This document shows, in pieces, positions 7,080-17,068 of a stretch of DNA of 48,114 nucleotides. This DNA is from Candidatus Moraniibacteriota bacterium. Its GTDB lineage: Bacteria; Patescibacteriota; Minisyncoccia; Moranbacterales; UBA11712. The notes beneath the pieces are model-generated. The model had not been told where the DNA came from. It did no database searches and saw nothing but the letters and a program-made list of their open reading frames with translations. Position 1 is the first letter of the stretch, and every line of letters starts with the position of its first letter. The stretch spans positions 1 to 48,114 of the forward strand of contig JAQVJV010000005.1 of the NCBI GenBank assembly GCA_028695025.1, in the 5' to 3' direction. The position numbers and the translations under genes are program-made.

Positions 7080-8036
7080 ATGCTCGCGTCTGTGAAAAAA
7101 GAGATCATAAAATCTGCCTTTCGCGCGCTCGGGACGGAAATTCTGATTCAAATTGCCGTTAATGCTTCCGAAAAAGAAAAAGCCGGGAAGGATATTGAAA
7201 AGGCCAAGGAAATATATCGGCAAAAAGAAAAAATATTTTCCCGTTTTGATCCGGAAAGCGAAATGAGCCGACTCAACCAAAATCTCGGCGTGTGGCAAAA
7301 TGCCTCGCCGGATATCTTGTACCTATCTCAGCGGATTTTGGAATATGGAAAAATCAGCGGGGGATTATACGATCCTCGCATTGTTGAAATCCTTGAGAAA
7401 ATCGGATATGACAAAGATTTTCGAAGTTTGGATTTTGCGAACAAAAAATCCGGCGCGGATTTTGATCCGATAAATTCTGACCTGGCCGAAGATTTGAAAA
7501 TCGACGGCGGGAAAATATTTTTCGGACGAAGGATGGATTTTTCCGGCGTGGCGAAAGGTTATATCACCGATTGCGCCACGAAATTTTTGAAGGAATCGGG
7601 TTGGGAGAATTTTTTGGCCGATTCGGGCGGGGATATGTATGCCGCCGGAAAAAATGCCGAAGGCGAGGATTGGAAAATCGAAGTGGAGGGGGCCGATCCG
7701 GAAAAATTGATGCTCGAAATTTCCGAAAGAGGAGTTGCAACTTCAGGAATCAGCCGCAAAAAATGGGAAATTGCCGGAAAAAAATACCACCATCTCGTGA
7801 ACCCGAAAAATCCGAATGAATATTCCTACGAGCTCCGCACGGTTTCCGTGATTTCTGAAAATGTGGAAAACGCCGACGGTCGGGCGAAAACACTTGTGCT
7901 CATGGGGAAAGAAAAGGGATTCGATTTTGCGGAGCAGAACAAAATCGCCGCGGTGTTTTTGGATTACCGGGGAGATATAAATATCACTTCCGAAGCAAAG
8001 AAATTCGTCTCACCCGAACATTCAATGTTCGGGTAA
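7080..8036 (+). CDS. apbE: FAD:protein FMN transferase (ApbE family)
   Basis: FRALGTEI, SRFDPESEMSRLN, DFSGVAKGYITDCATKFL, FLADSGGDMYAAG motifs. Confidence 0.9.
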   Translation: MLASVKKEIIKSAFRALGTEILIQIAVNASEKEKAGKDIEKAKEIYRQKEKIFSRFDPESEMSRLNQNLGVWQNASPDILYLSQRILEYGKISGGLYDPRIVEILEKIGYDKDFRSLDFANKKSGADFDPINSDLAEDLKIDGGKIFFGRRMDFSGVAKGYITDCATKFLKESGWENFLADSGGDMYAAGKNAEGEDWKIEVEGADPEKLMLEISERGVATSGISRKKWEIAGKKYHHLVNPKNPNEYSYELRTVSVISENVENADGRAKTLVLMGKEKGFDFAEQNKIAAVFLDYRGDINITSEAKKFVSPEHSMFG

Positions 8037-14453: not shown

Positions 14454-14801
14454 ATGTGTCTTTATCCAAAGGAAGATCATGGAGTAATTACTGGCGTGAA
14501 TTTGTTAGTAGTAAATAAGTGCTGGGTTTGCGGATTTTGGTGTTTCTCTTCACAGCTTCATCTAAACACTTTTGGATTCAATCAACTGAAGACTGTTCAA
14601 ATTTGCAAACATTGCGCTCAAGAAGCCATGCCAGGAGAAATTTTACTTGCCATTGCAATGAATATCGGCGGTTTTAGGATCGCTTGTGCTACGTGGAATT
14701 GTTATGAAAGGTTTCGCTTGGGGGTGGCGAGCGCCATAAAAAATTTATTCGAGTATAGACAGTGCGAACGTTCATATGATTCCCCTGCGCCGTCTTCCTG
14801 A
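14454..14801 (+). CDS. Hypothetical Cys-rich protein
   Basis: 115 aa, SD aaggggg; CWVCGFWC...CKHC. Confidence 0.55.
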   Translation: MCLYPKEDHGVITGVNLLVVNKCWVCGFWCFSSQLHLNTFGFNQLKTVQICKHCAQEAMPGEILLAIAMNIGGFRIACATWNCYERFRLGVASAIKNLFEYRQCERSYDSPAPSS

Positions 14802-14808
14802 CAATTTT

Positions 14809-14844
14809 GGCCGGGGTTCCTATGGGATTCCCGGCCTTGTTTTT
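14809..14844 (+). terminator. Intrinsic terminator abutting the next promoter
   Basis: ggccgggg...cccggcc-ttgttttt. Confidence 0.8.
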
Positions 14845-14871
14845 GACAAAAATAATATTTGGCAATATAAT
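14843..14871 (+). promoter_or_regulatory. Sigma70-type promoter of the aromatic-rich leader
   Basis: TTGACA-17 bp-TATAAT, exact consensus. Confidence 0.85.
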
Positions 14872-14881
14872 CAAGACAGTT

Positions 14882-14962
14882 ATGAAAATCATTTTAACCA
14901 AAACCTATTTTTTCTTTTTCTGGTTTAGCCAATCGGCCGGTTTTGGTTTGAGCAGAATTTGA
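14882..14962 (+). CDS. Putative aromatic-rich leader peptide (26 aa)
   Basis: MKIILTKTYFFFFWFSQSAGFGLSRI*, start 10 nt after the -10 box; contains tat ttt ttc ttt ttc tgg ttt; followed by mutually exclusive hairpins and a terminator. Confidence 0.65.
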   Translation: MKIILTKTYFFFFWFSQSAGFGLSRI

Positions 14963-15017
14963 CGGAAAAAGAAAATTATGGACAAACCAAACCCGGCCAG
15001 TGAGGTCGGGATTTTTT
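14896..15017 (+). promoter_or_regulatory. Putative transcription attenuator (segments 1:2, 2:3, 3:4)
   Basis: Seg1 aaccaaaacc 14896-14905; seg2 ggccggttttggtttg 14935-14950; seg3 caaaccaaacccggcc 14983-14998; seg4 ggtcggg 15004-15010, then T6. 1:2 = 10 bp, 2:3 = 15 of 16 pairs, 3:4 = 7 bp with one G-U. Confidence 0.7.
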
Positions 15018-15040
15018 ATTTTTTTAAGGAGGTTGGTTCT

Positions 15041-15589
15041 TTGAAAAAAACAGAAAAAGTCTATTTGCGATTAAATTGTTTTCGACAGCTATTTCTTGGG
15101 ATTAATTCACCAGGGATAAATGAAAAAGTTGTTGATTTTATGAAAAATTTAACGGTATCCAATAATACCAAAAGGATGGAATTTAATCCCGAGAAGCTCT
15201 TGGAAGAGTTGGACTTATTAAAAAGAAATAAGGCTATTCCTCTTGATTCATCTTTCGGGTCGGCCGGATACTTTCTTTTTAGTATCGCCGCCCACTGCCT
15301 CTCCAAGGATCCTATTTACGCAAATCACTTGATCCAAATGCTTAAATGGCCGGAAGTGAAATTTGCATGGGATAATAACTCGAGAGCAATTATTATTGCG
15401 ACTGCACTTGTTTCAATGCCCGGAGAATTATCCCAATGTATTCTTCAAGAAGTTGCGTCAATTCTTGAGGAGGATTATCCGGAAATAGACCAGATGATAA
15501 TGCTGGCTATCAATAAGAGATTGCAAGCCAGTAATATCCCAAGAATTGTCCATTTTGGCGATGGCTTCTTGTATGTTTCGGCTGGTTAA
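15041..15589 (+). CDS. Hypothetical protein under the aromatic-rich leader (TTG start)
   Basis: SD aaggaggt at 15026-15033, 7 nt before in-frame TTG 15041 (ORF track start 14978 would span the terminator); 182 aa, no domain recognised. Confidence 0.7.
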   Translation: MKKTEKVYLRLNCFRQLFLGINSPGINEKVVDFMKNLTVSNNTKRMEFNPEKLLEELDLLKRNKAIPLDSSFGSAGYFLFSIAAHCLSKDPIYANHLIQMLKWPEVKFAWDNNSRAIIIATALVSMPGELSQCILQEVASILEEDYPEIDQMIMLAINKRLQASNIPRIVHFGDGFLYVSAG

Positions 15590-15645: not shown

Positions 15646-15663
15646 CATTGTGGATAACCCGTC

Positions 15664-15692
15664 TTGACGAAAGGCCTCTTTCGGAGTAATTT
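15664..15692 (+). promoter_or_regulatory. Probable promoter of the second leader
   Basis: TTGACG-17 bp-TAATTT (weak -10). Confidence 0.45.
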
Positions 15693-15703
15693 AGAATACG
15701 GTT

Positions 15704-15820
15704 ATGAAAAATATTGCCACCGCGAAAAGTTATTCCATTTTGCTGATTCTTGCCCTCGTGCTCATTATTATGAGCGCATCCTTTTCGCTGGCCAGAGTTT
15801 TCCATAAGATAGCCCACTAG
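15704..15820 (+). CDS. Putative branched-chain-rich leader peptide or small TM protein (38 aa)
   Basis: MKNIATAKSYSILLILALVLIIMSASFSLARVFHKIAH*; near-leaderless gttATGaaaa like the 14882 ORF. Confidence 0.5.
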   Translation: MKNIATAKSYSILLILALVLIIMSASFSLARVFHKIAH

Positions 15821-15873
15821 GCAAAAAAGAAACTCGATAGAAAATTCCAACCCGGCGAAAAGGCCGGTGTTTT
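15716..15873 (+). promoter_or_regulatory. Putative second attenuator
   Basis: Seg1 gccaccgcgaaaa 15716-15728; seg2 ttttcgctggc 15782-15792; seg3 ccggcgaaaa 15852-15861; seg4 gccgg 15863-15867 with T-rich tail. 1:2 = 11 bp with a 2-nt bulge; 2:3 = 10 bp with one G-U; 3:4 = 5-bp terminator. Confidence 0.5.
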
Positions 15874-15911
15874 CTTTGACAATTTTTTTAAAAGGGATGA
15901 GGAGGAAGGGC

Positions 15912-16139
15912 ATGGAAAGGCAATGGGAAAAATACTTTAAGCTAATAGTTTTGAATTCGTGGGTTCCTTCGGGCACTATTTGCCCATTTTGCGAATGGGA
16001 AATCTATTCTTCGGAAAAAGGATCCAATGTTTACATTTGTGGTTGTGGAATCCATAAATATGATTTCCTTCAAATTATTGAGTTAGCGATGAACTCCAAA
16101 AATGTTTATGGCAATGGTAAATGGATAATTCCCTACTAG
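15912..16139 (+). CDS. Small Cys-containing hypothetical protein (zinc-ribbon-like)
   Basis: SD gaggaggaaggg before ATG 15912 (track start 15867 lies in the terminator); CPFCEW...CGCG. Confidence 0.6.
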   Translation: MERQWEKYFKLIVLNSWVPSGTICPFCEWEIYSSEKGSNVYICGCGIHKYDFLQIIELAMNSKNVYGNGKWIIPY

Positions 16140-16152
16140 AAAGGTAAATAAA

Positions 16153-16371
16153 ATGGATCAAAATATGTCCGAAGTTGTAGTAAATAGGTTGGTATATCAT
16201 ATTCCAGTTGATTGTCCAAAGCTGGTAGACGGCCAGCCGGCGTGCTCATTGAAATATCTTCTCCAATTTAATTGGGAGTGGATTGAGAGAGGAGTAAGAT
16301 GCCTTTGTTTTTTATGTAAAACGGAAAATTGTTTCCAGAAACAGAGGATGCAAAAAAATTTGGCAAGCTAA
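16153..16371 (+). CDS. Small Cys-containing hypothetical protein
   Basis: 72 aa; ...RCLCFLCKTENC... Confidence 0.5.
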   Translation: MDQNMSEVVVNRLVYHIPVDCPKLVDGQPACSLKYLLQFNWEWIERGVRCLCFLCKTENCFQKQRMQKNLAS

Positions 16372-16378
16372 TTTCCTT

Positions 16379-16432
16379 TAGGGAAGGCTGATTGCGCCGC
16401 GCCGCAAGTCACATCAGTCTTCCCTTTTTTCT
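16379..16432 (+). terminator. Long intrinsic terminator
   Basis: agggaaggctgat / atcagtcttccct 13-bp stem then tttttt. Confidence 0.85.
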
Positions 16433-16474: not shown

Positions 16475-16606
16475 ATGGCGAGCCTTGAAGAACAAATAGA
16501 AAATATGGCAAAAGATATAGATCGGATGAGGGATACCTTGGATGATTATCGAAGGACTCTTGAAAAAATAGCTGGTCAGGTTAAGAAATTAGAAGAAGGG
16601 AAATAA
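16475..16606 (+). CDS. 43-aa coiled-coil protein
   Basis: MASLEEQIENMAKDIDRMRDTLDDYRRTLEKIAGQVKKLEEGK*; upstream aagga; below track length cutoff. Confidence 0.5.
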   Translation: MASLEEQIENMAKDIDRMRDTLDDYRRTLEKIAGQVKKLEEGK

Positions 16607-16994: not shown

Positions 16995-17065
16995 CGGGAT
17001 ATAGTATAACGGCAGTACGCGTGCATGGGGTGCATGTAGCCCCGGTTCAATTCCGGGTATCCCGA
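16995..17065 (+). tRNA. tRNA-Pro (GGG anticodon)
   Basis: Full cloverleaf: acceptor cgggata/tatcccg, D gtat/gtac, anticodon arm cgtgc-atGGGgt-gcatg, T arm cccgg-ttcaatt-ccggg, discriminator A; C1:G72 as in bacterial tRNA-Pro. Confidence 0.85.
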
Positions 17066-17068
17066 CAC

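Follow-up and report, generated by a model that had tools for sequence, protein, structure and literature searches.

A short leader peptide gene followed by a switchable terminator very probably turns on small orphan genes when leucine is short in a bacterium related to Candidatus Moranbacteria, judging from its sequence and that of its relatives. The unit lies in the window, the 48,114-nucleotide stretch of DNA analyzed here, which belongs to a 0.98 Mb genome that is the sole member of its genus. We estimate the probability that the unit is a ribosome-mediated transcription attenuator, responding mainly to leucine supply, at about 0.85. The leader layout described in the original prediction is confirmed, and its reading as ribosome-mediated attenuation is well supported.

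Organization of the leader unit

As listed in Table 1, a promoter is followed by a near-leaderless leader ORF, four RNA segments, an intrinsic terminator, and two small orphan genes that form the cargo. The promoter and leader ATG, the alternative helices (1:2, 2:3, and 3:4) with their T-rich tail, and the Shine-Dalgarno (SD) sequence and ATG of the first orphan are all present where they had been predicted. The -10 element matches the consensus at three of six positions. While the predicted 2:3 helix exists, its proposed length of 10 bp was too short: 15780-15791 form 12 pairs with 15852-15863, and eight more join 15795-15802 to 15840-15847. Segment 2 sits inside the ORF, about nine codons 5′ of its stop. 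An independent promoter between 15820 and 15912 would have spoken against attenuation; we looked for one and found no promoter-like site on the forward strand between the leader stop codon and the cargo ATG.

Table 1. Coordinates of the leader unit and adjoining features in the window.
Feature	Position	Strand	Remarks
DnaA-box-like TTATCCACA	15649..15657	-	6 nt 5′ of the target promoter -35
Target promoter TTGACG-17-TAATTT	15664..15692	+	-35 TTGACG 15664-15669; -10 TAATTT 15687-15692; from sequence
Leader ORF, 38 aa, MKNIATAKSYSILLILALVLIIMSASFSLARVFHKIAH	15704..15820	+	ATG 15704; stop 15818-15820
Segment 1, partner of segment 2 (anti-antiterminator)	15716..15729	+
Control-codon run ILLILALVLII, between segments 1 and 2	15737..15769	+
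Segment 2, partner of 1 or 3, within leader ORF	15780..15802	+
Segment 3, antiterminator with segment 2	15840..15863	+	Core 15852-15856 is the terminator 5′ arm
Segment 4	15863..15867	+
Intrinsic terminator CCGGC-GAAAAG-GCCGG with T-rich tail	15852..15890	+
Cargo 1, 75-aa orphan with CxxC and CxC	15912..16139	+	SD gaggagg; no family found
Cargo 2, 72-aa Cys-containing orphan	16153..16371	+	No family found
Probable operon terminator GGGAAGGCTGAT ... ATCAGTCTTCCC with T run	16381..16432	+	From sequence
Sibling unit: Phe leader (MKIILTKTYFFFFWFSQSAGFGLSRI), attenuator, 182-aa orphan	14843..15589	+	Leader ATG 14882

We infer the following sequence of events from this arrangement. Transcription would begin 1-4 nt 5′ of the ATG, with a ribosome translating the leader close behind the RNA polymerase. 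When charged Leu-tRNA (perhaps also Val- or Ile-tRNA) is plentiful, the ribosome would run to the stop codon; segments 1 and 2 would then pair behind it, leaving segment 3 free, and the 3:4 terminator would end transcription. When Leu-tRNA is short, the ribosome would stall in the run, which separates segments 1 and 2, and 1:2 could not close. The long 2:3 antiterminator would form instead, allowing RNA polymerase to read into the orphans at 15912 and 16153.

Two further features of the locus were recorded. The DnaA-box sequence TTATCCACA occurs exactly at the leader in four of seven family genomes (the window's genome, G005, G006, and, on the opposite strand, G003), and its place holds one mismatch in G001, G002, and G004 (equivalent places in L026-L031); control of the promoter by DnaA is possible. 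The stretch from a CxxC/CxxC orphan (14454-14801) to a tRNA-Pro gene (16995-17066) is variable and forms an island flanked by conserved genes. This orphan lies behind a dihydrofolate-reductase-like gene, as it does at the equivalent places in G002 and G005. Family members share a small coiled-coil gene at the island end, which in the window (16475-16606) lies just 5′ of tRNA-Pro(GGG).

Conservation in the family

The leader peptide was found in seven of the eight genomes of its Moranbacteria family, representing five genera; in the eighth, a contig end interrupts the locus, and a cargo fragment lies at the very edge. DNA alignment shows the pattern TTGAC-17-TAnnnT in the same register in all seven, with the ATG 8-11 nt further on, so that the transcript should be near-leaderless. 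Each of the seven also has a GCGAAAA-type segment 1, a TTTTCG-type segment 2, a CGG-GAAAA-type segment 3, and a terminator, and a Leu-rich run lies between segments 1 and 2, ahead of the pairing of segment 2 with segment 3. The peptide measures 36-38 aa and has nine invariant residues; these include L16, L20, and most of FSLxRVFxKI. Its C-terminus (FSLxRVFxKIxN) is conserved at a fixed length to the stop codon. The ORF looks translated, since synonymous changes exceed non-synonymous ones (pN/pS 0.12-0.14 in two close pairs).

The peptide could not be detected outside the family: matches to a class-wide profile are at noise level, and four candidate relatives (L022-L025) proved to be chance matches. 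A collection-wide search with the DNA pattern returned only the six relatives already identified, plus three unrelated matches attributable to chance. The same pattern found no match in viral contigs and there is thus no sign of a phage element.

In five genomes (the window's, designated G000, and G001, G002, G005, and G006), a cargo ORF with an SD sequence starts 24-44 nt 3′ of the terminator. This gap leaves no room for a promoter, so the cargo can be reached only by reading through the terminator. No attenuated gene follows the terminator in G003 and G004, where the next gene encodes a coiled-coil protein and apparently has its own promoter. These leaders without cargo are the best argument for an added role of the peptide, or they may be relics of lost cargo.

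Statistical support for the helices

Because covariation in an alignment of seven sequences is too weak alone, the helices were compared with nulls that preserve the peptide. For each genome, 1000 sequences were generated in which the peptide was kept by synonymous codons and the untranslated part was shuffled. The 2:3 helix was reached by 1, 27, 0, 0, 2, 3, and 5 of the 1000 null sequences (G000, G002, G001, G003, G005, G006, and G004, respectively), and the 1:2 helix by 99, 47, 33, 40, 6, 3, and 10. The pairing that would restore termination is therefore stronger than chance in each of the six relatives (null 3-47 of 1000), while in the window 1:2 alone is not significant (99/1000). Taken jointly, 1:2 and 2:3 were reached by at most 4/1000 null sequences in any of the seven genomes and never in the window.

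Pairing also depends on the register of the two strands. When the partner strand was moved by 1-3 columns and paired cells were counted over the seven sequences, the paired fraction fell from 87% to 42-55% for 2:3, from 82% to 44-56% for 1:2, and from 86% to 19-40% for 3:4. RNAalifold picks the 2:3 antiterminator from the seven genomes. At the wobble site of a conserved Val codon, the pair with the partner base is AU, GU, GC, or UA among genomes, all synonymous. Covariation overall is modest, exceeding column shuffles weakly, as expected for seven sequences. Depending on the genome, the minimum free energy fold of the whole leader contains either 2:3 or the combination of 1:2 and 3:4, and the mutually exclusive states are hence close in energy.

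Most of the conserved C-terminus (FSLxRVFx) is encoded in the 2:3 helix. This bears on whether the attenuator peptide is itself active, for example if the hydrophobic run and conserved C-terminus of the emerging chain make the ribosome pause or respond to insertion into the membrane. Such a dual role could account for the fixed distance from the C-terminus to the stop codon, the excess of synonymous over non-synonymous changes, and the persistence of the leader without cargo in two genera. However, we consider it unlikely: most of the conserved residues are encoded in segment 2 and are thus explained by RNA pairing, and a ribosome halted at the stop codon would leave 1:2 free to pair, which would cause termination rather than read-through.

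Sibling leaders

A mechanical search for a promoter, a near-leaderless short ORF, a terminator, an SD sequence, and a gene, blind to 1:2 and 2:3, returned about 20 sites across the 224 kb that surround these loci. In the window it returned the target site and the neighboring unit and nothing else. Nearly all sibling peptides carry amino-acid runs (FFFFWF, LLLLLL...VVV, IFIIIISIII, NNNQNNN), which fall into Phe/Tyr, Ile, Leu, and Asn types. The 2:3 helix is significant in 11 of the 12 siblings tested (null at most 14/300); 1:2 is significant in a few only and is weak or missing in the majority. A ribosome at the stop codon could mask a segment 2 located near it, whereas the target, with about nine intervening codons, would need 1:2.

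The siblings differ in what they precede. The neighboring Phe/Tyr leader occurs again both within the family and in other families of its order, before small variable ORFs in every case inspected; the unit in the window scores 29.8 bits against Rfam Phe_leader, below the cut-off of 55. An Ile leader comes after the target unit in five family genomes. Its cargo is an orphan in G002 and G006; in G001 it resembles citramalate synthase, scoring 377 bits where the equivalog cut-off is 450. In another genome (G116), an Ile-run leader lies directly 5′ of a clear citramalate synthase gene (745 bits, cut-off 450), and in two more (G021, G111) LLLL leaders lie 5′ of genes whose best family is 2-isopropylmalate synthase, at scores below the cut-offs. 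A leader is not universal at synthase loci, as none was found at those others from the LeuA/CimA search that were scanned for one. Matches between run and pathway played no part in finding the family leaders, and their agreement links the layout with amino-acid control. The Phe/Tyr and Ile siblings, together with the cognate biosynthetic genes in relatives, strengthen the earlier proposal that adjoining orphans respond to different amino-acid shortages.

Individual loci illustrate the variety of these units. At L027:3565-5316 (minus strand; leader at oriented position 7472), the Ile-run peptide MKLKNIFIIIISIIITRLELSSEFSF precedes a citramalate synthase-like gene, and in the sister genome G002 a leader of the MKLKNIFIIIISIIITRLELSSEFSF type precedes an orphan instead, an exchange of cargo. 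About 2.4 kb upstream of the target leader in L029 (oriented), a Lys-rich leader-like unit (MKKDAKKTNFLAGFGLSKISAA) with Phe-type segments (GGCCGGTTTTGGTTT) is followed by a terminator, an SD sequence, and a 69-aa orphan; it is possibly a Lys leader. At oriented position 5652 of L096, an Asn-run leader (MRNVRNNNQNNNIPSRAGVCVLIGG) with terminator and orphan cargo stands in one array with Leu and Phe leaders.

These siblings also help to assess the alternative raised in the original prediction, that the ORF encodes a real membrane micro-protein (36-38 aa in the family, 38 aa in the window) with an ordinary terminator of its own. On this view the helices would be incidental and the orphans read only by leakage. 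The peptide does have a hydrophobic stretch of 15-17 residues, whose run admits Phe, Met, and Ala, as expected of a membrane helix, and its invariant L16 and L20, conserved FSLxRVFxKIxN, low pN/pS, and retention without cargo in G003 and G004 would suit a functional protein. Nevertheless, the leader, 2:3 helix, and terminator are conserved together, FSLxRVFx falls in that helix, the cargo of five genomes has no other promoter, and siblings of the same layout carry runs unlike membrane helices (FFFFWF, NNNQNNN) and precede biosynthetic genes. Comparison of the seven genomes revealed 1:2 and 2:3 pairings co-conserved with the ORF, and not the conservation of a protein alone, which makes this alternative very improbable. 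A chance combination of a random short ORF and an ordinary terminator is negligible and already refuted by conservation in seven genomes of five genera, by the absence of any site in five dinucleotide shuffles of the 224 kb, and by the helix nulls, even though promoter-like and terminator-like sites are common in single sequences.

Other candidates were rejected. A scan of 163 kb drawn from other parts of the window's genome gave one loose match, at a looser threshold; it is doubtful and looks like chance. Perfect sigma-70 promoters elsewhere in this genome mostly mark ordinary gene starts. A T-box riboswitch was also considered, and no covariance model matched in the window, even at a relaxed threshold.

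Amino-acid specificity and metabolic context

The run lies between segments 1 and 2 as predicted, but equal sensing of Ile, Leu, and Val is not the favored reading. Over the seven genomes the runs are composed mainly of Leu (L38, V18, F9, M8, I7). Given this dominance, and since five genomes have a distinct Ile leader alongside, the target most plausibly senses mainly leucine, or perhaps leucine and valine. The rare Leu codon CTA makes up 6 of the 38 Leu codons in the runs, compared with a 4% background, a suggestive figure drawn from related rather than independent sequences.

The window's genome (99% complete) gave no LeuA/CimA family match at 1e-20 in a search that was positive in 13 of 14 control genomes, which is consistent with auxotrophy. 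Attenuators usually regulate a gene in the metabolism of the sensed amino acid, though this is not strictly defining. The cargo in the window consists of orphans with no link to leucine metabolism; the match to a pathway is seen only for siblings in relatives. The orphan cargo has no relative in the family by sequence and no Pfam or PADLOC family; its sole similarity at profile level, a weak one, is to the Cys-rich cargo found in relatives.

Comparison with known attenuators

Enterobacterial leu and ilv leaders (Rfam RF00512, Leu_leader) combine a Leu/Ile/Val codon run with segments 1-4, and the target shares both. In contrast to these, region 15649-15915 matches no Rfam leader family, Leu_leader included, and, as segment 2 lies about nine codons before the stop, termination would need 1:2 and not masking by a ribosome at the stop.

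Within the Moranbacterales, the Ile and Leu leaders before citramalate synthase and LeuA-like genes resemble the target in their order of promoter, near-leaderless leader, terminator, and gene, and their amino acid matches the pathway. Their peptides and helix sequences cannot be aligned with those of the target, and their 1:2 helices are mostly weak or absent.

The leucine-rich attenuator peptide leader of Staphylococcus aureus ilvD controls ilv-leu biosynthesis (PMC5794164). Like the target, it comprises a short Leu/Ile-rich ORF, a terminator 3′ of it, and an alternative antiterminator, and the read-through on leucine shortage seen there is what we propose here (PMC5794164). It differs in being SD-led rather than near-leaderless, in its antiterminator, and in its cargo, the target being followed by orphans in a genome in which no LeuA/CimA was found (PMC5794164). 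Listeria Rli60 (Rfam RF02414, rli60) is a ribosome-mediated attenuator of ilv-leu that likewise has a leader peptide and exclusive antiterminator and terminator (PMC5864092). Branched-chain amino acid supply serves Listeria as a signal of the host environment, and by analogy might do so here; the two leaders are unrelated in sequence, and the Listeria cargo is a biosynthetic operon (PMC5864092).

The target is new relative to known attenuators in its organism, its near-leaderless leader, its tandem amino-acid-specific units, and its exchangeable orphan cargo. In the open-access literature we found no paper combining attenuation and leader peptides with Patescibacteria, nor one combining leader peptides with Moranbacteria; Candidate Phyla Radiation and attenuator together returned a ribosome structure only. 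Attenuators of this kind, controlling exchangeable orphans without detectable LeuA/CimA, are thus apparently new in Patescibacteria.

Implications for the Moranbacterales

Nutrition sensing in the small genomes of Patescibacteria is largely obscure, and most of their genes are orphans. Attenuators whose specificity can be read would tie such orphans to one signal, shortage of a single amino acid, which is relevant to organisms obliged to take amino acids from others. The leaders provide a search handle for the orphans under their control and can be tested in Escherichia coli without culturing the source organism. More broadly, and tentatively, since we hold it at somewhat under even odds, tandem interchangeable attenuators specific for Phe/Tyr, Leu, Ile, Asn, and perhaps Lys may gate fast-changing orphans across the Moranbacterales. 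An auxotrophic, host-dependent cell would thereby detect which amino acids are not provided by its host and switch on accessory proteins to match.
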